This document shows positions 15,506 through 26,723 of a stretch of 64,000 nt of DNA, in pieces (the stretch's first letter is position 1; each line of letters begins with the position of its first letter). Origin of the DNA: Porticoccaceae bacterium (lineage in GTDB: Bacteria; Pseudomonadota; Gammaproteobacteria; Pseudomonadales; Porticoccaceae); NCBI GenBank assembly GCA_012960115.1, contig DUBX01000037.1, positions 1 to 64,000 of the forward strand, in the 5' to 3' direction. The notes under the pieces are model-generated. The model had not been told where the DNA came from, searched no databases, and worked only from the letters and a program-made list of their open reading frames with translations. The position numbers and the translations under genes were made by a program.

Positions 15506-17137
15506 TTAGGTTTTAGCATAAGGTTTCGGGTCTGAGGCTTGCGGACTGAGAAGGAAACCTTCGTAAGTTTCTTCTGCCACTCGCTTGCATTCCGTTACAT
15601 AGTTAGGGTAACCAAGAAAAGGCATAAATATCCTAGGCTTTCCGGGTATGTTCGCGCCTAAGTACCAGGAATTACACCCTGTGGTGTAGAGAGTCTTCCC
15701 GGAAATTTTGTTTACGCGATTAACCCATGTTTGTTCTGCTTCTTCGCTCGCTTCGATACATATTAGGGAGTTTTCTCGCAAATAGCTCAGGCAGCCACCT
15801 ACCCATTCCACATGCTGCTCGATGGCCACTATCATGTTCGCTAATACGGAAGGGCTACCTGGACCGGTAATAGTAAATAGGTTAGGGAATCCGTTGATAG
15901 TCAGCCCTAAGTAATTCTTAGGCCCGTCCTGCCATTTATCTTTGAGGGTTTGGCCGTCTAATCCACGAATGTCGATAGAGAGAAGAGCACCGGTCATAGC
16001 GTCGAAACCAGTAGCGAAGATTAAGGTATCAAAATTATATTTTGTAATGCTGGTTCGAAGCCCGTCATTGATTATTTCTTCAATTGGAGTAGCGCTGACA
16101 TCTACTAACTTTACGTTTTCTCGATTGTAGGTCTCATAGTAGTTAGTGTCGACGCACAGACGCTTGCAACCGACTACGGTATCTGGGCAAAGCGAGTTAG
16201 CAACTTCTGGGTTCTTAACGGTTTCCTTTATTTTTCTGTGTATAAAGTCAACAGCAGTATTATTTGATTCTTTATTGAGATTTAAATCATTAAATGCGGC
16301 GAGAAACGGTAGGCCGCCACTTTGCCACCTCTGCTCGTAAGTTTTTAAGCGCTCTTCAGCGTCAACTTCCATCGCGGATTGGTTGTTGGGGTTATTGCTG
16401 ATCGCAGCATTTAATTTGGCATTTTCTTGTCGAAATTTGCTGTAGCTTGCCTTCACTTTTTCTTCGTACTCTTTATCCATCAATCTATTGCGGGCAGGGA
16501 TGGAGTAACAAGGTGTGCGCTGGAATACAGTCAATGATTTTGCTTCTTCAGCAATTATTGGAATTGATTGCACTCCGGAGGACCCAGTTCCAATAATGCC
16601 GACATTTTTGCCGACGAAACTAACCGGGCGGTGGGGCCAACTGCTGGTATGTAGAATCGTACCAGTAAAGGATTCAATGCCAGGGAATATGGGCGTATGG
16701 GGTTTTGACAAACAGCCGGTAGCCATAACAACGAATTTTGCATTAAAGTTCTCTCCTAGATTGCTTTCAAGAACCCAGCTATCGCTATTTTCATTCCAAT
16801 GCATCGCAATAATTCGTGTATTAAATTGAATATTTTCTCGCAAATCGAATCGATCTGCTACGTGATTGGCATATTCTAATATTTCAGATTGGGGTGCGTA
16901 TTTTTCAGACCAATTCCATTCCTGCTGCAGTTCATCGGAAAATTGGTAAGAGTACTCAAGACTATCAACGTCGCATCTCGCACCAGGATAGCGATTCCAG
17001 TACCAAGTACCGCCAACGCCGTCAGCGGTTTCGAATACCTGGCAAGAAAATCCTAAGCTGTGAAAGTGGTGGAGGGCGTACATGCCAGCGAAACCTGCGC
17101 CTACAATTGCTACATCGAACTTCTTGCTTTGTGTCAT
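15506..17137 (-). CDS. Flavoprotein Baeyer-Villiger-type monooxygenase
   Basis: 543 residues from the ATG at 17137; an in-frame TTG 12 bp earlier is inside the HupE gene. FAD motif GAGFAGMYALHHF, then GVGGTWYWNRYPGARCDVDS, the Baeyer-Villiger fingerprint FTGTILHTSSWP (FxGxxxHxxxWP), the NADPH site GIIGTGSSGVQSIP and ATGFDAMTG. Inserts oxygen next to a ketone to make esters or lactones, with NADPH and O2, in the cytoplasm. The start lies 5 bp after the HupE stop, so the two are probably co-transcribed, although no functional link is known. Confidence 0.9.
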   Translation of the reverse strand: MTQSKKFDVAIVGAGFAGMYALHHFHSLGFSCQVFETADGVGGTWYWNRYPGARCDVDSLEYSYQFSDELQQEWNWSEKYAPQSEILEYANHVADRFDLRENIQFNTRIIAMHWNENSDSWVLESNLGENFNAKFVVMATGCLSKPHTPIFPGIESFTGTILHTSSWPHRPVSFVGKNVGIIGTGSSGVQSIPIIAEEAKSLTVFQRTPCYSIPARNRLMDKEYEEKVKASYSKFRQENAKLNAAISNNPNNQSAMEVDAEERLKTYEQRWQSGGLPFLAAFNDLNLNKESNNTAVDFIHRKIKETVKNPEVANSLCPDTVVGCKRLCVDTNYYETYNRENVKLVDVSATPIEEIINDGLRTSITKYNFDTLIFATGFDAMTGALLSIDIRGLDGQTLKDKWQDGPKNYLGLTINGFPNLFTITGPGSPSVLANMIVAIEQHVEWVGGCLSYLRENSLICIEASEEAEQTWVNRVNKISGKTLYTTGCNSWYLGANIPGKPRIFMPFLGYPNYVTECKRVAEETYEGFLLSPQASDPKPYAKT

Positions 17138-17141
17138 ATAG

Positions 17142-18134
17142 CTAGGCAACCAATATTAAGGGTAGTCGCTCGAGAAACCAGAATGCGGCAATTCCTCCTA
17201 GCCCATAAGCCAGTCCTTTGTGAATGCTGAGCAACGAGCTGCTGAGAAATTTCGCGAGGGCCAAGTTTACAGCAATTAAAACGCAAATAAAGCCGACCTG
17301 CCCGGCTTCCACTCCCAAGTTAAAAAATAATAATGCCAGTGGAATATCTGCATTGCTGAGGCCTAATTCTCCGAGCGCTCCGGCAAATCCAAAGCCATGT
17401 ATTAAGCCAAAGGCGAAAGCAATCAACCAAGGTTTAGAATGCACTAGAGTTTGTTGCCCACGATGTCCCATAATAATTTCACGAGCTAAGAAAATAATTG
17501 AGAGCGCGATTAATACTTCAATAGGGGGTCCAGGAACAGGGAATATTCCTAGAACTGCACAGGCAAGAGTTATGCTGTGGGCAATGGTGAATGCTGTGAT
17601 AGTTTTAATAAGTATCCAAAATCCTTTGAGTAGTAACAAAAGGCCGAGTACGAATAACAAGTGATCTATACCATAGAGGATGTGTTCGGCGCCCAGTTCT
17701 AAATATCGAATAGCCAGGTTTCTAATCGACCCGGCGCCTGCCTTCAATTCTGCCAGTGGAACATCAATGTAATTACCGTCACCGGGGAAATATCCGGACA
17801 CATTGTCGCCGCTATTCCAGCGAGCCACGACCACAACTCCCTGTAATCCCCAAGGGAAGGATATACTGTCGTTAATGTTCAGACTGGGATAACAGCTGAA
17901 GCGATAACTATAGCCGCCAGGTTCCAAGCCAACACAGCGTTCAGGCAATATTCGTTCTACATTGAATAGCGGCGGGACTTGCTGGTCCACTATCGATAGG
18001 CGGTATTCGTTGTTTTCCATTTCATCCATGAACACCCGGGCAACTCCAGTAACATCGATGTCATGAGCGAATACTGAAGAACTAGCAGGAATTGCGAATA
18101 AGAAGCAGAGAGCTAAAGTGAATTTTTTTGTCAT
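17142..18134 (-). CDS. HupE/UreJ-family membrane protein
   Basis: 330 residues: signal peptide, a periplasmic beta-rich domain of about 140 residues, then a HupE/UreJ_2 membrane domain with HILYGIDHLLFVLGLLLL, FTIAHSITL and GLIHGFGFAGALGELGL. The His residues in GIDHLLF, IAHSIT and IHGFGFA are the conserved metal-path candidates. HupE proteins are associated with nickel or cobalt uptake; this long subfamily with a periplasmic domain often sits next to a parvulin, as here, and its substrate is unproven. 24 bp separate it from the upstream parvulin gene. Confidence 0.85.
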   Translation of the reverse strand: MTKKFTLALCFLFAIPASSSVFAHDIDVTGVARVFMDEMENNEYRLSIVDQQVPPLFNVERILPERCVGLEPGGYSYRFSCYPSLNINDSISFPWGLQGVVVVARWNSGDNVSGYFPGDGNYIDVPLAELKAGAGSIRNLAIRYLELGAEHILYGIDHLLFVLGLLLLLKGFWILIKTITAFTIAHSITLACAVLGIFPVPGPPIEVLIALSIIFLAREIIMGHRGQQTLVHSKPWLIAFAFGLIHGFGFAGALGELGLSNADIPLALLFFNLGVEAGQVGFICVLIAVNLALAKFLSSSLLSIHKGLAYGLGGIAAFWFLERLPLILVA

Positions 18135-18158
18135 AGAGAAATATTTAGCCTAGCAGAG

Positions 18159-18965
18159 CTACTCAGACTGGGTATCATTAATAATACGAATGGAATATTT
18201 ATTCCAGAGTTCATCTACTTGTTGCTGCAGGCGCAGGTCCTCTTCCTGAGCTATCCAGTCCAGACGAACTCTATCCTCAATTTCGTTTAATGGTGCAAGG
18301 CGAGCCTCATTTCTCTCAGTTATGCGGAGCCAGTGCTGCCCTCTATTGCTAATGAATGGTCCAGACCAATCCCCAAAATTTGCTGAAAATACATTTGTAG
18401 CAAAACTTTCTTCAAAAATATTTGATAGATCAAGAAAATTTACATTGGGTAAGGGCGAGGTAGACCCTCCCGACAATTCCAATAACTCTTCAGCGTCAGC
18501 GCCACTCGAAAGTAGAGTCTGCACGATAGCAGGCAGCGCATCACGGCTCTCAAAAACCAACTCGTCTACCGAAACTGTAGATAATGTTTCGTAACGAGAG
18601 GCATTGTCCTGATAAAAACTGAATAATTCTTCCGAGCTAGGCTGGATAACATCGCCACTTAATACATGGCGCATCTTTTGAGCCAGCATGTCATAAATGC
18701 GGGCATCGTTATCCAGATCCATGGCAAAGGCTTCCTGGACCAAGATTTGCTCTTCTATAAACAAAGCTGTAATCATCTCTCGCTGTTGATCACTAACTGT
18801 TTCGCCACTATTTAATTCTTGAAGAAAAACCCTGGCGTCGATTTCGCGCTGGCTTACTTCAAGAACGTTCTCATCGTTAGCCTGTGTGAATCCATATAAA
18901 GCAAAGATTATTCCCGCTATTAAGAAGAAGTGTAGGGTAGGTTCTTGTGACCAGGATTTCAGCAT
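18159..18965 (-). CDS. Membrane-anchored parvulin-type peptidyl-prolyl isomerase (PpiC/SurA-like)
   Basis: 268 residues with one N-terminal transmembrane helix. An N-terminal helical chaperone-like segment (EREIDARVFLQEL ... IEEQILVQEAFAMDLDNDARIYDMLAQKMRH region) is typical of SurA/PpiD proteins; the parvulin domain follows with ETLSTVSVDELVFE and WSGPFISNRGQHWLRI. Acts in the periplasm on folding of exported proteins. First gene of the parvulin-HupE-BVMO run; pairing with HupE suggests it may help fold that membrane partner, which is inference. Confidence 0.8.
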   Translation of the reverse strand: MLKSWSQEPTLHFFLIAGIIFALYGFTQANDENVLEVSQREIDARVFLQELNSGETVSDQQREMITALFIEEQILVQEAFAMDLDNDARIYDMLAQKMRHVLSGDVIQPSSEELFSFYQDNASRYETLSTVSVDELVFESRDALPAIVQTLLSSGADAEELLELSGGSTSPLPNVNFLDLSNIFEESFATNVFSANFGDWSGPFISNRGQHWLRITERNEARLAPLNEIEDRVRLDWIAQEEDLRLQQQVDELWNKYSIRIINDTQSE

Positions 18966-19045
18966 AATGAGATTGTGATTCTTCCTATTTAGTTATTCTG
19001 ACATCAATGATTACTTATTGAGATAGCTAGTTATGGTTTATTGTG

Positions 19046-19098
19046 CAAATAGAGCAGATTGCTGAAATAGAGCAGATTGCTGAAATAGAGCAGAATCC
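19046..19098. repeat. 18-bp tandem repeat, about 2.9 copies
   Basis: Unit GAAATAGAGCAGATTGCT: copy 1 (19046-19063) differs at the first base, copy 2 (19064-19081) is exact, copy 3 (19082-19098) diverges after GCAGA. Located in the gap between the parvulin gene and guaB, about 157 bp before the guaB start. Confidence 0.8.
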
Positions 19099-19239
19099 GC
19101 AGGTATATAGGCGCTAGTGTGAATTCTGAATGAATTTGATTCAAGTGCTAAATTCTAGTTTTCTGGGCTAATTATCCATTCGAGCATAAGCTACTTCTAT
19201 ACAAGCTGGAATGCTCTCTGTATAATCCCTTTTTTGTAG

Positions 19240-20809: not shown

Positions 20810-22390
20810 ATGACAGCAGCGAATATTCATAGCCAGAAAATTCTAATTCTGGATTTCGGTTCTCAATACACACAACTCATCGCGCGGCGCGTTCGCGAAA
20901 TGGGAGTCTATTGTGAAATTTGGGATTACCAAGTCGACAAAAACTTGTTTCTGGAATTTTCTCCTCAAGGGATCATTTTTTCGGGGAGCCCTGAGTCAGC
21001 CAATACCAATGAGTCGCCTCGACCGCCGAATTTCTTGTATGAAGCGGGTTTGCCTATATTGGGGATTTGCTATGGCATGCAAACCATGGCGGAGGAATTC
21101 GGTGGGAAGGTTGAAGCATCGTCGAAGTCTGAATTCGGTTTCGCGCAAGTCGATGTTACTAGTAATAATCGTTTGCTGAACGGTATCAAGGACCGCACTA
21201 ATGAAGTAGGGCAAGAACAGTTGGACGTTTGGATGAGCCATGGCGATAAAGTCACTGCCGTGCCGCCAAACTTTGAATTAGTGGCTGCCACCGAAAGCGC
21301 TCCCATTGCAGCTATGTGTGATGAGTCACGAAAATTTTATGGGATACAGTTTCATCCTGAAGTGACTCACACGGTGCAAGGACAACTCATTCTCGAGCGT
21401 TTCGTTAAAGAAATTTGCAACTGCGAATCTCTGTGGACATCAGCAAGTATTATTGAAGATGCGATTGCGACCATACGTGCCCGCGTCGGTAGTGAAAAAG
21501 TTTTACTTGGTCTTTCCGGTGGAGTTGATTCATCTGTCGTTGCAGCGCTGCTGCAAAGAGCAATTGGAGATCAGCTTACTTGTGTGTTTGTAGATAACGG
21601 TCTGCTTCGTCTCAATGAAGGCGATCAGGTCATGGCCTCTTTTGCCAAGAACATGGGCGTTAAAGTAATTCGCGCTGACGCAGAGGAATTTTTCCTCTCA
21701 AGGCTTGCTGGCGTTAGTGATCCGGAAGCGAAAAGAAAGATTATCGGCAACACATTTATTGAAATATTCGATGAAGAAGCTTCGAAATTGCAGGATGTTA
21801 ACTGGTTAGCTCAAGGAACTATTTATCCAGATGTTATCGAATCCGCTGGTTCAAAAACTGGCAAAGCTCATGTCATAAAATCTCATCACAATGTGGGTGG
21901 CCTACCAGAAGACATGAAAATGGAGTTAGTGGAGCCACTGCGTGAACTGTTTAAAGACGAAGTGCGCAAAATCGGCTTGGAGTTGGGCTTACCTTATGAC
22001 ATGGTTTACCGGCATCCATTCCCTGGGCCTGGGCTCGGGGTTCGTGTCTTGGGAGAAGTTAAGAAAGAGTATTGTGACATTCTCAGACTGGCAGACGCGA
22101 TTTTCATGGAAGAACTACACAGATCTGATTGTTACAACAAAGTTAGTCAGGCTTTTGCTGTGTTTTTGCCAGTTAAAAGTGTTGGAGTGGTAGGGGATTC
22201 ACGTCGTTATTCGTACGTAATTACACTGCGGGCTGTAGAAACGATAGATTTCATGACTGCACGTTGGGCGCGGTTGGAGCCAGAACTGTTAGAAACTATT
22301 TCTAATCGAATTATGAATGAGATAGAGGATGTCTCGCGTGTGGCTTACGATATTTCAAGTAAACCCCCGGCAACTATTGAGTGGGAGTAA
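20810..22390 (+). CDS. guaA: GMP synthase (glutamine-hydrolysing)
   Basis: 526 residues. Aminates XMP to GMP using glutamine and ATP. N-terminal class I amidotransferase with Cys87 in GICYGMQTM and FHPEVTH; ATP-pyrophosphatase P-loop [13 protein letters not shown]-terminal dimerisation domain ending PATIEWE. The full-length ending is intact although the coding sequence for its last residues (22373-22389) is the first of four direct repeats that divide the following 3.4 kb. The 3' end of guaA is a known integration site of genomic islands, and the repeats rebuild TIEWE-stop after each insertion. Confidence 0.98.
22373..22389 (+). repeat. Core repeat copy 1 (guaA 3' end, candidate att site)
   Basis: ACTATTGAGTGGGAGTA, in frame with guaA, coding TIEWE and the stop. 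It differs from the other three copies by one base (GAG against GAA for the last Glu). Confidence 0.8.
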
Positions 22391-22424
22391 CCGTCACTCA
22401 TACACAAACACGTTGGCATTCATT

Positions 22425-23552
22425 ATGAAGAAACAAATGAAAAAATATTTAACTGCATTAGTCGGACTTTTGCTTTCAAGTTGTTCTAACCTACAAACAA
22501 CAATTGCTGAAAATGGAATCGAAGTTTCTAATAATGGAATTAACAAAAAACAATCTGAACTTATATTTGATAACACGAAATCATTTCCAAACAATACTCA
22601 ATTATCGCTTGCCTTAATTAGAAATGGGGAAATTGACTTTATTGGAATTGAAAGAACAAATGACACAATAAAGTTGATTGAAAATTATAAGAATGTTTTT
22701 GAAATCGGTTCTATAACTAAAGTATTTACCGCAACCTTATTATCAAATTTTGTTAATGACCAAAAGCTAAAATTAGATGACAACATCCAAGATTACCTTG
22801 ATTTCAAAATCAATTCCGAAAACGATATAACTTTTAAGGAGCTTGCAAATCACACTTCAGGATTTCCGAGATTACCTTCAAATCTGAACCTATTGTACCT
22901 ATTGTTTAACCAAGACAATCCTTATAAAGATTACAACAAAGAAAAGCTTGTGGATTATTTAACAAAAAAAGTCAAACTAAATCAAGAACCTGGAATTAAG
23001 TACGAATACTCTAACCTTGGTGCTGGAATTTTGGGATTTGAATTAGCATCTATTTCCAAGTCATCATATGAATCACTACTTCAAGAGAAAATATTTACAA
23101 AATATAAAATGGAAAACTCTACAAGCAAAAGAGAAAATATACAATCTGAACTCGTTAATGGATTAAAACCGAATGGAAAAACAACCTCGAATTGGGACTT
23201 TGATGTTTTAGCAGGTGGTGGAGCAATTTTGTCTACAGTAGAAGATCTATCAAAATTTGCTTTAGCTCAATTTGACAATGAGAATAATGAATTAACTCTG
23301 ACTCAAAAGCCAACATTTAAAGTAAATGACAATATGCAGATAGGACTTGGATGGCATATTTTAAAAACAGAAAACGGTGGAGAACTAATTTGGCATAATG
23401 GGGCAACTGGAGGTTATAGGTCCTCAATGGGTTTAGATATAGAAAATAAAAACGGAATAATTATACTGTCAAATGTTTCTGCATTTAACGAGAAAAGCGA
23501 AAATATTGACCAATTACTTTTCGAACTGATAGAAACATTGGATGAGAAATAA
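22425..23552 (+). CDS. Beta-lactamase-family serine hydrolase, lipoprotein
   Basis: 375 residues from the ATG at 22425 (a second ATG at 22437 is possible). The signal peptide ends in a lipobox (LLSSC), so it is likely lipid-anchored. Class C/penicillin-binding-like catalytic motifs: SITK (FEIGSITKVF) near residue 97, YSN (YEYSNLGAG), and HNGATGGYRS as the third HxG motif. Such proteins include esterases, D-aminopeptidases and class C beta-lactamases; antibiotic hydrolysis is not shown. Base composition is strikingly A+T-rich and Asn/Lys-rich compared with guaA, pointing to acquisition from a low-GC donor, for instance Bacteroidota. Sole gene of the first segment. Confidence 0.85.
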   Translation: MKKQMKKYLTALVGLLLSSCSNLQTTIAENGIEVSNNGINKKQSELIFDNTKSFPNNTQLSLALIRNGEIDFIGIERTNDTIKLIENYKNVFEIGSITKVFTATLLSNFVNDQKLKLDDNIQDYLDFKINSENDITFKELANHTSGFPRLPSNLNLLYLLFNQDNPYKDYNKEKLVDYLTKKVKLNQEPGIKYEYSNLGAGILGFELASISKSSYESLLQEKIFTKYKMENSTSKRENIQSELVNGLKPNGKTTSNWDFDVLAGGGAILSTVEDLSKFALAQFDNENNELTLTQKPTFKVNDNMQIGLGWHILKTENGGELIWHNGATGGYRSSMGLDIENKNGIIILSNVSAFNEKSENIDQLLFELIETLDEK

Positions 23553-23847
23553 AGGAAGAGCCAACTGTATAAAACCGGCGTCTACCGAAAATTCAGATTA
23601 ACGGGTGGGAATAAAAAGGATTGTGTTGCGGTCCGTGCTTCCAATGCTCGACTTCATAGACTTTGTTACAAATATGCCAACTAGTGACACAGGGAGTCGC
23701 AAATCATCGAGTATTTCTTCTAGTTGCCCTAAGAAACCTATTAGATCGAGGTTAAAATTCAGATCCAAAGTTTGTAACTAAAAATGATAACTTTGTTGAA
23801 AACAAAGAGGAAATGTAAGAGAGGAAATTGATTAATGGATAAAAATA

Positions 23848-23866
23848 GTTACAAAGAAGTTACAAA
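23848..23866 (+). repeat. GTTACAAA doublet, 11-bp pitch, before core copy 2
   Basis: Two GTTACAAA copies 11 bp apart, about one helical turn. The surrounding 23 bp match the segment-3 doublet (25717-25735) with one mismatch, and the distance to the core is 54 bp here and 52 bp there. Candidate recombinase arm site. Confidence 0.6.
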
Positions 23867-23881
23867 GTCTAATTATAGAGC

Positions 23882-23903
23882 CTGTAAAATATTGATTTTA
23901 CAG
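23882..23903. repeat. Palindrome TGTAAAAT-N4-ATTTTACA upstream of core copy 2
   Basis: Nine-base arms (C plus TGTAAAAT) around ATTG, ending 17 bp before the core repeat. The half-site recurs in the palindrome at 24111-24128. Confidence 0.7.
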
Positions 23904-23920
23904 TATATTTTAGTAACGTA

Positions 23921-23937
23921 ACTATTGAGTGGGAATA
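23921..23937 (+). repeat. Core repeat copy 2
   Basis: ACTATTGAGTGGGAATA followed by G, so that it still reads TIEWE-stop (TAG). Boundary of segments 1 and 2. Confidence 0.85.
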
Positions 23938-24110
23938 GTTGCAAATCTAACAAACCCTCTAGAATCAACCCGTTCAGACCATTAAAAGTGTGACAAACTC
24001 TGTCAAAGCAACGAAAGAATGCGGGTTTCAGAGCACTAAAAACAAAGATATAGCAAACTCTTGCTACTATTGAATCTCATAAGTTGAATTGATATTTCAT
24101 CTTGATATTA

Positions 24111-24128
24111 TGTAAAATATATTTTACA
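24111..24128. promoter_or_regulatory. Perfect palindrome TGTAAAAT-AT-ATTTTACA, putative operator
   Basis: 18-bp perfect palindrome 34 bp before the start of the membrane-protein/XRE gene pair; a further TGTAAAAA half-site follows at 24132-24139. Position and symmetry fit an operator for the XRE protein encoded in the same segment. Confidence 0.55.
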
Positions 24129-24161
24129 ATATGTAAAAATATTTATACATGGAGTTGGATG

Positions 24162-24608
24162 ATGAGTATGTCGTATAAGGAAAAAAGTTTAATTGCCTCT
24201 CTGAGTGCTACGTTATTAGTGTTTGGATGGTATTTTTATCAAGTTTTTTCAAATCAAATGTTTAATATTGGACATGAATTTACGTTCAATGACATTTTTA
24301 GACCAATTATTCTAATCGTGGTATTGGAGATTATTATTCAATCTTTTTTGGCAGGAAAGGATAAAAATAAAGAAGATGAAAGAGATGCACTGATTGAATT
24401 AACTTCTTACAGAAATGGTTACTGGGTTCTGAGTATAGGAGTATGGTTTCTATTGATACAACTTTTGTATGTTGGAAGTGGTGGTTGGTATGATATTTTG
24501 GAAAATTCGTCCCCCGCATTTATACCCCATTTGTTACTACTATTTTTTGTTCTAGCAGAAGTGACTAATTTCATTACCCAGCTCTACCATTACCGCAAAG
24601 GTATTTAA
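24162..24608 (+). CDS. Small membrane protein paired with an XRE regulator
   Basis: 148 residues; ATG at 24162 follows GGAG by 7 nt (24159 and 24168 are alternatives). Four predicted transmembrane segments: SLSATLLVFGWYFYQ, DIFRPIILIVVLEIIIQS, YWVLSIGVWFLLIQLL and HLLLLFFVLAEVTNF, with a charged loop AGKDKNKEDERDALIEL between the second and third. The KEDERD loop resembles small membrane proteins (DUF2178-like) often found just before a tiny HTH regulator, as here. Function unknown. A+T-rich. The stop is one base before the TTG start of the XRE gene. Confidence 0.75.
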   Translation: MSMSYKEKSLIASLSATLLVFGWYFYQVFSNQMFNIGHEFTFNDIFRPIILIVVLEIIIQSFLAGKDKNKEDERDALIELTSYRNGYWVLSIGVWFLLIQLLYVGSGGWYDILENSSPAFIPHLLLLFFVLAEVTNFITQLYHYRKGI

Positions 24609-24609
24609 G

Positions 24610-24816
24610 TTGTCTAAGAGTTTAAGTAACAACATTAGAAAATTAAGATTTGAGGCAGACGAAATGTCTCAGCAAACTTTAGCAGACAAAGTGGGTGTAA
24701 CTCGGCAAACAATATTTGCCATTGAAAAAGACAAATACTCCCCATCCTTAGAAGTTGCTTTTAAAATATCCAATGTATTCAAAGTCCCTTTAGAAGAAGT
24801 TTTTATTTATGATTAA
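24610..24816 (+). CDS. XRE-family helix-turn-helix regulator, single domain
   Basis: 68 residues, TTG start at 24610 placed one base after the upstream stop. Entire protein is a Cro/CI-type HTH: NNIRKLRFEADEMSQQTLADKVGVTRQTI with recognition helix VTRQTIFAIEKDKYSP and the typical PLEEVF ending. No sensor domain. Probably autorepresses the two-gene operon through the palindrome at 24111-24128; this is inferred from position. No ATG fits as well, because the HTH begins immediately after the TTG. Confidence 0.85.
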   Translation: MSKSLSNNIRKLRFEADEMSQQTLADKVGVTRQTIFAIEKDKYSPSLEVAFKISNVFKVPLEEVFIYD

Positions 24817-24880
24817 TAAGAATGAGAAAATATTTAGCTCAAAATGGGGGTTGTTTTTTTGAGATCGTAATAGTTACAAC

Positions 24881-24926
24881 ACACTTTATTAAAGTGTCTC
24901 TCAAACCCTTGTGCTATAAGGGTTTG
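24881..24926. repeat. Two inverted repeats at the end of segment 2
   Basis: ACACTTTA-T-TAAAGTGT (24881-24897) and CAAACCCTT-N7-AAGGGTTTG (24902-24926). They resemble terminators without a strong T run. The CTCTCAAACCC element repeats at 24947-24957 before core copy 3. Confidence 0.7.
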
Positions 24927-24951
24927 TAAAACACCAACTAACGCACCTCTC

Positions 24952-24975
24952 AAACCCTTATAAACACTGGGGTTT
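24952..24975. repeat. AAACCC/GGGTTT inverted repeat before core copy 3
   Basis: AAACCC (24952-24957) and GGGTTT (24970-24975), followed by TT, 11 bp before the core. Equivalent in place to the inverted repeats before copies 2 and 4; it may also end transcription of the XRE operon. Confidence 0.6.
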
Positions 24976-24986
24976 TTCTCATGTCT

Positions 24987-25003
24987 ACTATTGAGTGGGA
25001 ATA
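24987..25003 (+). repeat. Core repeat copy 3
   Basis: ACTATTGAGTGGGAATA plus A: TIEWE-stop (TAA). Boundary of segments 2 and 3. Confidence 0.85.
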
Positions 25004-25030
25004 AGCAGAATTAGAATTTATGGAGCAGAT

Positions 25031-25126
25031 ATGTTGGAAATGAAGCAAGAATGTTTAGAGTGCGGTTGTGTGTTAGCACTAGATTCAACGCGCGCCTATA
25101 ATAAAACACAATCTATTGCAGGATAA
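25031..25126 (+). pseudogene. DUF1272 N-terminal fragment
   Basis: 31-codon frame with ATG at 25031, 6 nt after GGAGC. It reads MLEMKQECLECGCVLALDST, recalling the start of DUF1272 proteins (MLEMK-x-CExC-x-LPxDS), but stops where the second Cys pair should come, so the zinc-binding domain is incomplete. It lies 7 bp before the phosphatase-like gene and could now act only as a leader. Recognition is from memory of the family and rests on a short match. Confidence 0.5.
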
Positions 25127-25133
25127 ATAATTT

Positions 25134-25700
25134 ATGAAATTTTCAATACGTTCTCTGTTGCTTACGATGTTAATGTACTTTTGTGTTAGTCATTCCCTAG
25201 CGCAAACTGGCTTAACCGATGACATCTATAGTCAATCCGAATCAATCGCGGATGTCATGAACTACTTTCCAATGGCTAATGGAATAGGCACAGCAGGACA
25301 ACCAACACCTGAGCAGTTTGCGCTAATAAAAGCAGCGAAATATTCAGCAGTCATTAACCTAGCAGTTGCTCAATCAGTCAACGCACTACCAAACGAAGCA
25401 AAAATAGTTACAGATTTAGATATGTCTTATCAGCATATACCTGTGCCCTGGGATGCGCCCACCGCCAGCCACGTAAAAGAATTTTTTGAGACAATGGATA
25501 TGCTTACGCAGCAAGCAGATCCAATTCTCGTTCACTGCGCAGCAAACTATCGAGCGTCTGTCTTCACCTATAAATATTTGACGCTCAGACAAGGTTTGTC
25601 GAAAGAGGATGCAGCCACCCCACTACTCAAAGAATGGCTTCCGCAAATGGATGATAATTGGAAAGCAATTATGGCGTTGAGCCTGAACGATATTGAGTAA
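25134..25700 (+). CDS. Exported DUF442/protein-tyrosine-phosphatase-like protein
   Basis: 188 residues with a signal peptide (VSHSLAQT). The body matches the DUF442-type phosphatase fold: GIGTAGQPTPEQFALIKAAKYSAVINL and the P-loop LVHCAANYRASVF (Cys, four residues, Arg, Ser spacing seen in DUF442 proteins). Some relatives are fused to sulphur dioxygenase-type hydrolases. Substrate unknown; the exported location suggests a periplasmic role. Only complete gene of segment 3, with composition closer to the host than that of segment 1. Confidence 0.8.
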   Translation: MKFSIRSLLLTMLMYFCVSHSLAQTGLTDDIYSQSESIADVMNYFPMANGIGTAGQPTPEQFALIKAAKYSAVINLAVAQSVNALPNEAKIVTDLDMSYQHIPVPWDAPTASHVKEFFETMDMLTQQADPILVHCAANYRASVFTYKYLTLRQGLSKEDAATPLLKEWLPQMDDNWKAIMALSLNDIE

Positions 25701-25716
25701 CGCCTACCATGAAAAA

Positions 25717-25735
25717 GTTACAAAGTAGTTACAAA
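25717..25735 (+). repeat. GTTACAAA doublet, 11-bp pitch, before core copy 4
   Basis: Two GTTACAAA motifs 11 bp apart, 52 bp before the core. Same arrangement as at 23848-23866. Confidence 0.6.
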
Positions 25736-25751
25736 GTCGAAAAAATGCCTC

Positions 25752-25778
25752 TGAAACCCACTATCTATAAGGGTTTCA
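25752..25778. repeat. TGAAACCC/GGGTTTCA inverted repeat before core copy 4
   Basis: Eight-base arms around 11 nt, ending 9 bp before the core; CTCTGAAACCC resembles the CTCTCAAACCC elements of segment 2. Confidence 0.7.
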
Positions 25779-25787
25779 AATTAGGCT

Positions 25788-25804
25788 ACTATTGAGTGGG
25801 AATA
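25788..25804 (+). repeat. Core repeat copy 4 (distal end of the array)
   Basis: ACTATTGAGTGGGAATA plus A: TIEWE-stop. It ends 4 bp before the next gene's ATG, so GTGGGA may act as that gene's ribosome site. Confidence 0.85.
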
Positions 25805-25808
25805 AAAA

Positions 25809-26723
25809 ATGAATTACTTTCGCCCCGTTTACCCTTTCTTACTGGGGTTGGGTTTTATTTTATGGTCTACAACATTTCTTAAATTAGCCCTTCTAAACAG
25901 TTTGGGGCAGCTTGCTCTGTTCACTGTAGTGGTATGTATACCAATTTGGCGTACTGGCCGTATGAGCTACGTGGATATTGGCTGGCCTTGGGGTCTAGTC
26001 TTACTTGGTATCATTAGCTTTTGTTTTAGCGATGGTTACTGGTTGCGGTCTCTTATTGTTAGCAGTGTGGTTATTTTGATTGGGCTTCGCATGGGGTTAG
26101 GTGCTCTAAAAATGTGGCGCTTGGGCTTTTTGGAAAAAGAGTTTCCTAGATATCAATATCAACGGATAGTCTGGAAAGAAGAAGGCAAAAATAACACAGC
26201 ATTAGCCTTGCAGATAGATGCTATTGCGCAAGGTTTAGCGAATGCCTCATTTTTAGCGTTTCCCATTTTCATTATTGCCTCAAATGGTGATCAAGAATTT
26301 TTGGTACTAGAAATAGTGGGGCTTGTTATTTGGATTCTGGCATTTTTGATGGAATCCATAGCTGATTTCCAGAAGGTTCGTTTTCTTAAAGAAATGAAAA
26401 GAGAAGGTAAGCATCGTCAAGTGTGCAATGTTGGCCTGTGGAAGTACTGCCGGCACCCTAACTATTTTGCTGAGTGGATGGTGTGGAATGGCCTGGTAAT
26501 CGCTGCTATTCCATCTTGGTTGTCGCTTAAAGGTTTCGAAAGCGAGCCAGTATGGTTGTTACTAGGGATAGGGCTTTTGTCGGCCTCCAAATTTATGTAC
26601 ACCACCTTAGTTTATACAACAGGAGCGGTGCCTTCTGAATATTACTCAGTACAGAAAAGACCCGACTACAAAGACTATCAAGAGCAGACAAATCGTTTTT
26701 TCCCAGGACCAAGAAAAAGTTGA
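25809..26723 (+). CDS. DUF1295 membrane protein (steroid 5-alpha-reductase-like)
   Basis: 304 residues with about seven transmembrane helices. The DUF1295 signature is clear near the C-terminus: NVGLWKYCRHPNYFAEWMVWNGL, with the HPNYFxE-type motif of the isoprenylcysteine methyltransferase/5-alpha-reductase superfamily, followed by a Tyr-rich end (RPDYKDYQEQTNRFFP). Probably uses a reduced nucleotide or SAM-like cofactor on a lipid substrate; the reaction is unknown. The gene starts four bases after the last guaA core repeat, so its original promoter has been replaced by whatever lies in the array. Confidence 0.85.
   Translation: MNYFRPVYPFLLGLGFILWSTTFLKLALLNSLGQLALFTVVVCIPIWRTGRMSYVDIGWPWGLVLLGIISFCFSDGYWLRSLIVSSVVILIGLRMGLGALKMWRLGFLEKEFPRYQYQRIVWKEEGKNNTALALQIDAIAQGLANASFLAFPIFIIASNGDQEFLVLEIVGLVIWILAFLMESIADFQKVRFLKEMKREGKHRQVCNVGLWKYCRHPNYFAEWMVWNGLVIAAIPSWLSLKGFESEPVWLLLGIGLLSASKFMYTTLVYTTGAVPSEYYSVQKRPDYKDYQEQTNRFFPGPRKS

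Follow-up and report, generated by a model that had tools for sequence, protein, structure and literature searches.

Small integrase-less gene cassettes that may be stacked behind guaA in SAR92-group marine bacteria

Downstream of guaA, the gene for GMP synthase, small, mostly one-gene cassettes that carry no integrase appear, judging from the sequences, to be stacked in some SAR92-group marine bacteria and in one of SAR86. This arrangement was analysed in a 64,000-nucleotide stretch of DNA (hereafter the window) from a Porticoccaceae bacterium, covering positions 1 to 64,000 of contig DUBX01000037.1 (C37) in assembly GCA_012960115.1 (G000), and in genomes compared with it; coordinates are window positions unless a locus (L) is named. 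We think it likely that such cassettes form an array at the 3' end of guaA, and that they were inserted there by the guaA-specific integrase of other elements.

Within the window, ACTATTGAGTGGGAATA occurs four times as a direct repeat, always on the + strand, at 22373 (with one mismatch), 23921, 24987 and 25788; four matches at up to three mismatches were reached in none of 100 dinucleotide shuffles. The next base after each copy completes a stop codon, and over all loci the stop codon is restored at 37 of 39 hand-listed sites, the real exception being L090 5308 and the second (L086) a coordinate that is off by one. Elsewhere in G000, contig C44 carries a second guaA whose end is one further core, with one mismatch, and a match with two mismatches inside a gene on C29 of the same assembly looks like a chance one. 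The copies in the window delimit three units, as follows:

20810 to 22390, + strand: guaA (GMP synthase; Pfam GATase and GMP_synt_C), whose 3' end is the first core
22373 to 22389, + strand: core copy 1, with one mismatch
22426 to 23552, + strand: cargo of unit 1, a serine hydrolase of the PF00144 (beta-lactamase) fold family (Pfam)
23597 to 23613, + strand: degenerate core in unit 1, 3' of the gene (core weight matrix, 15.2 bits), possibly a chance match
23847 to 23866, + strand: arm-like direct repeat pair at the right end of unit 1 (9/9 at spacing 11)
23851 to 23938, + strand: right end (attachment site, att) of unit 1, with core copy 2 at 23921-23937 (right-end model R1, 51.7 bits; a training sequence)
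24162 to 24608, + strand: cargo of unit 2, a membrane-like protein without a Pfam match
24610 to 24816, + strand: cargo of unit 2, a 68-aa HTH_3 regulator (Pfam)
24878 to 24940: partial second copy of the right end of unit 2
24944 to 25004, + strand: right end of unit 2, with core copy 3 at 24987-25003
25134 to 25700, + strand: cargo of unit 3, a DSP/PTPase-like phosphatase with a predicted signal (Pfam, slightly under the gathering cut-offs)
25716 to 25735, + strand: arm-like direct repeat pair at the right end of unit 3 (9/9 at spacing 11)
25720 to 25805, + strand: right end (att) of unit 3, with core copy 4 at 25788-25804 (model R1, 68.2 bits; a training sequence)
25809 to 26723, + strand: DUF1295 gene (Pfam), starting 4 nt after core copy 4

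These data confirm what the first-pass annotation had described in the window, namely four same-strand repeats of the guaA end at exactly these positions, a stop codon completed after each, and between them three units with unrelated genes, in none of which did the open reading frames (ORFs) or Pfam reveal an integrase. The zone of the units is AT-rich (35-37% GC in the two 2-kb bins between 22 and 26 kb vs 40-51% in the other bins of the window). A tRNA scan of the window found none, and the promoter/terminator scan stayed close to shuffled expectation.

The part shared by the units consists of the core and a right end of about 85 bp, which is laid out as a pair of 9-bp direct repeats spaced by 11 bp, often an inverted repeat, and then the core. 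The repeat pair (such as AGTTACAAAGTAGTTACAAA) lies about 72 bp before the core, both at the later cores of the window and in relatives. Picking cores by core sequence alone, with no more than one of 14 positions mismatched, gave 44 distinct cores in a set of 42 sequences made up of the window, L009 and L043-L082. Of these cores, 20 end guaA and the other 24 do not; upstream of 16 of the 24 non-guaA cores stood a 9-bp repeat with spacing 11 that matches in at least 8 of 9 positions, compared with 14 of 1000 random 70-mers. An arm pair was likewise present in 28 of 34 right ends vs 5 of 400, these ends having been found partly by a model that itself contains the arms. From their layout, the spaced repeats would be arm-type integrase sites. 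The right end of unit 2 and its partial copy score 42.6 and 31.7 bits with model R1, and the former shows no clean arm pair (arm test 4/9). For the inverted repeat, the z-score was below -1.5 in 12 of 21 right ends (mean -1.64), and paired cells amounted to 65% vs 58% in shuffles, a value reached by 1 of 500; covariation was matched by 34 of 500 shuffles and two-sided changes by 425 of 500, and consensus folding of the right ends with RNAalifold gave 0 pairs. Given these mixed pair counts and the empty consensus fold, the inverted repeat is only moderately supported.

Near-identical right ends were found next to unrelated cargo. That of unit 3 shares 92% identity over 72 bp with the right end of a cassette encoding a 131-aa protein in G020, and 90% with that of a two-gene cassette in SAR86, while shuffled right-end comparisons (n = 300) gave a mean of 58% and a maximum of 65%. 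As the cargo of unit 3 is unrelated to that of either counterpart, and as two orders are involved, the pattern suggests recent movement. Unit 1 recurs in G030 as 91% identical DNA, with homology running from the core to the end of the gene; other DNA precedes it there and another right end stands behind it. The window also matches G003 and G007 at 95% from 25789 onwards, a position inside the core.

Tabulation by hand yielded 27 units in 16 arrays, some of them bounded by degenerate cores, and one unit of 184 bp was dropped. The first core is the guaA end in 7 of the 16 arrays, and in SAR86 an integrase element at guaA precedes the array. In 21 of 26 units (P = 0.0025), which are partly non-independent (unit 1 recurs in G030, and one gene is common to G003 and G007), the longest ORF is co-oriented with the core, that is, with guaA, and the first co-oriented ORF starts within 67 nt of the core in 13 of those 21, alternative start codons being allowed.

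A candidate for moving the cassettes was found in a family of tyrosine integrases, a near full-length member of which lies directly after a core at four loci of the genus; the core ends guaA at three of these and not at the fourth (G007 C51), and the copy in G023 stops before the catalytic tyrosine. Scanning of genome_contigs gave 70 loci of the family, among them loci of SAR92, SAR86 and other gamma- and alphaproteobacteria. guaA lies within the fetched DNA at 52 of them, 51 of which have a core-like motif (the exception is L131). Any match to the family was seen in 10 of 50 genus genomes. On the SAR86 contig the order is guaA, integrase, resolvase and three cassettes, and the integrase remnant at L171 has the same left-arm type as the neighbouring cassette and window units 1 and 3. 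The L171 contig is labelled Akkermansiaceae, carries a guaA-type cassette and is perhaps misbinned. G000 contains two other partial phage-integrase matches. A plasmid search with the SAR92 integrase returned one distant match only, a phage search three weak ones (best E 1e-4), and the 33 stretches that the integrase alignment matched in viral_contigs included no relative.

Model R1 reached at least 30 bits in 17 of 48 genomes of the genus (SAR92/Porticoccaceae), 9 of which had contributed to its training; G021, G016, G019, G011, G006, G030, G028 and G037 had not, and the SAR86 locus L111 and L171 are also outside the training set. In a class-wide sample, 4 of 368 genomes besides G000 had matches at E of at most 1e-4, all weak (best 26 bits), and the exact right-end pattern had 0 matches in viral_contigs. 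No report of guaA cassette arrays in SAR92 or SAR86 was found among the open-access papers searched, subscription papers lying mostly outside that search.

Taken as a mechanism, other elements of the same bacteria would supply a tyrosine integrase specific for guaA, which would recognise both the core GAGTGGGA and the arm-type repeats in the right end of each cassette. Circular cassettes would enter either at guaA itself or at one of the cores that the array already holds, and every insertion would restore the guaA stop codon and add one direct core. We infer the circular intermediates, the supply of integrase in trans and the transcription of cargo from the guaBA operon; such read-through fits the orientation bias of the ORFs.

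Several observations weigh against this proposal: (i) 8 of the 16 tabulated arrays are not directly beside guaA, (ii) a right end lies 66 kb from guaA in G021, and right ends lie on other contigs than guaA in G019 and G011, (iii) the longest ORF is on the opposite strand in 5 of the 26 units, (iv) 2 of the 16 arm matches at non-guaA cores are low-complexity sequence at another offset, (v) no family integrase was found in G000, an assembly that is 94% complete, (vi) no excision, circle or pair of empty and filled sites within one strain was seen, and (vii) two lineages probably meet at the array in the window, whether through assembly or through a real transfer.

The last point concerns the left part of the window. 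G000 has two guaBA operons and two PF00958 loci. On C44, guaA is followed by a cassette array up to the contig end (L009 1-1226), one cassette carrying a P-loop kinase-like gene, and the gene beside this guaBA, named by eye, we take to be xseA, the usual gammaproteobacterial order. By comparison, the window guaBA, together with three genes upstream, has counterparts in the same order in UBA7449, with 50-82% protein identity; in tetranucleotide profile, 1-22,350 correlates at 0.80 with UBA7449 and at 0.61-0.73 with the right part and C44; and 15506-19200 has no match in five relatives. Bases 1-22,390, including the window guaA, thus seem to belong to another lineage than SAR92, and this guaA is probably not the native copy of the SAR92 genome, so that the array, as drawn with four copies, may be chimeric. 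We lean towards an assembly artefact, in which contigs of two bacteria were joined through common cassette sequence, C44 itself ending inside an array; the window guaA would then never have carried these three units. Yet the assembly is rated at 0 contamination, the left part also correlates at 0.76-0.77 with one SAR92 genome, the ends of C44 and C37 do not overlap, and a piece of chromosome could really have been transferred. An artefact in the window would moreover leave the arrays of G020, SAR86, G008 and others unexplained. Because of the probable join, the window array is not to be used alone, and the arrays of the other genomes are unaffected.

Ordinary accretion and decay, as in cis-mobilizable elements (CIMEs), would have complete guaA islands inserted serially and then stripped of integrase and most cargo, leaving immobile fragments. 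Many guaA islands are known, integrase remnants do directly follow guaA or the cores of arrays in G021, G026, G039 and G016 C60, and some units are long, mixed-strand or bounded by degenerate cores (G042, G006, G039). Such decay should usually leave the left arm in place; at spacing 11, however, this arm was present at 11 of 15 left ends of integrase elements or remnants and at 1 of 17 cassette left ends (P = 0.0001), the cassettes having been hand-picked, and with spacings of 10-12 allowed it was present at 4 of 17 cassette left ends (P = 0.012 against the integrase or remnant ends). Among unselected integrase loci, it follows 25 of 55 first cores, compared with 10 of 1000 random stretches. 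These counts indicate that the elements are often two-armed and the cassettes one-armed. The closeness of the first co-oriented genes to the core and the near-identity of right ends across two orders, beside unrelated cargo, argue in the same direction, and we consider decay unlikely.

One-armed cassettes moved by an integrase acting in trans make the best reading of these sequences. The first-pass annotation had read the window as a repeated insertion at guaA that regenerates the gene, perhaps mobilised in trans by CIME-like accretion, and resembling a gene-cassette system. Comparison with relatives supports the insertion at the guaA core with restoration of the stop codon; relatives show different cargo between the same cores, and the likeness to gene cassettes is supported as well. 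A tyrosine recombinase of the clade beside the same core, which it had proposed to look for, exists in the genus loci and in genome_contigs. Of the CIME-like accretion, the integrase-free units between like cores stand; the units are not plain CIMEs, since nearly every cassette examined lacks the left arm and the gene often begins beside the core. The interpretation was therefore right in kind and is partly supported, with the caveat on the contig.

A true integron, in which IntI moves attC cassettes as folded single strands, has in its favour the gene-plus-site layout, the co-orientation and the inverted repeat of 12 right ends; it is nevertheless highly improbable, as the adjoining integrases are of phage/island type (PF00589, PHROG 1), four of them gave no NCBIfam integron integrase above cut-off (no dedicated whole-genome IntI scan was run), the core is the guaA 3' end, arms are present and consensus folding gave no pair. 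Tandem duplication of the guaA end would also yield direct copies of it, and can hardly apply, since similarity to guaA ends at the core and a conserved right end, not guaA, stands upstream of the later cores.

Some further features were noted around the arrays. The DUF1295 gene is either the SAR92 right flank or a last cassette without a remaining right end; between it and an SDR gene (window 26737), G003 and G007 have about 780 bp extra, with a 165-aa ORF. At L051 3141, L084 550 and L085 2153, a right end common to G003, G007 and G016 lies away from a visible guaA. The DNA after it differs between the three, G007 having an integrase element there and G016 an integrase fragment. A reverse-oriented core occurs inside the G007 and G003 arrays (L052 2035, L053 10805). 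Extra partial copies of the guaA 3' part occur in G023 (L055 16752-17147) and G026 (L061 9671-9909), as if elements carry or leave guaA ends.

In its broadest and more tentative form, the proposal would be an integron analogue made from an ordinary guaA integrase, in which one-armed single-gene cassettes circulate among marine bacteria, SAR92 and SAR86 included, stack up behind guaA, draw on guaBA for their expression, and depend on an integrase that comes with passing elements and is not kept at the array. The capture of single-gene cassettes is usually exemplified by integrons; if the proposal is true, another tyrosine integrase with an essential gene as platform would offer small-genome ocean bacteria a second route to modular gene capture. 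The cargo inspected is mainly metabolic (amine oxidase, glyoxalase, hydrolases, an FMN-binding protein), and a defence search of ten cargo proteins gave no specific match, its sole match being the HTH regulator, a generic one; the arrays could thus bear on the spread of such metabolic genes in ocean bacteria.

Integrons hold small, promoter-poor genes, each with a recombination site, in one orientation at a platform. The arrays share the stacks of gene plus site, the single prevailing orientation and the platform, and differ in the integrase type, in an arm-bearing site instead of attC and in the housekeeping gene that serves as platform. In CIMEs, tandem island accretion and composite staphylococcal cassette chromosomes (SCC), direct att copies divide a composite island, some parts of which have no recombinase. 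CIMEs keep both arms at their two ends, unlike the cassettes here (left arm at 1 of 17, spacing 11), and SCC uses large serine recombinases (Ccr), whereas here only a 193-aa small resolvase was found beside one integrase, far under the Ccr cut-offs. As in guaA-targeted integrative elements, the core restores the reading frame at the guaA 3' end; those elements have their own integrase, which the window units lack and related elements carry. The portions available of a description of strand-biased circularizing elements do not mention guaA (PMC10214605). The Epsilon15/CMGI-3 cluster consists of tyrosine integrases targeting the guaA 3' flank; they are alike in target, and the passages on them do not describe the moving of cassettes (PMC8138268). 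The closest parallel is the genomic island GIsul2, which targets GAGTGGGA of guaA and whose integrase excises and inserts an integrase-less unit, CR2-sul2, between att sites, recreating the core (PMC9376610). Both systems have the same core centre at the guaA 3' end and an integrase-less segment between two same-core att sites; there, it is one large unit with its own rcr gene (PMC9376610), while here the cassettes are numerous and small, most of them hold a single gene, and they share a standard right end and mostly lack the left arm. The chemistry described for GIsul2 would account for the arrays reported here.

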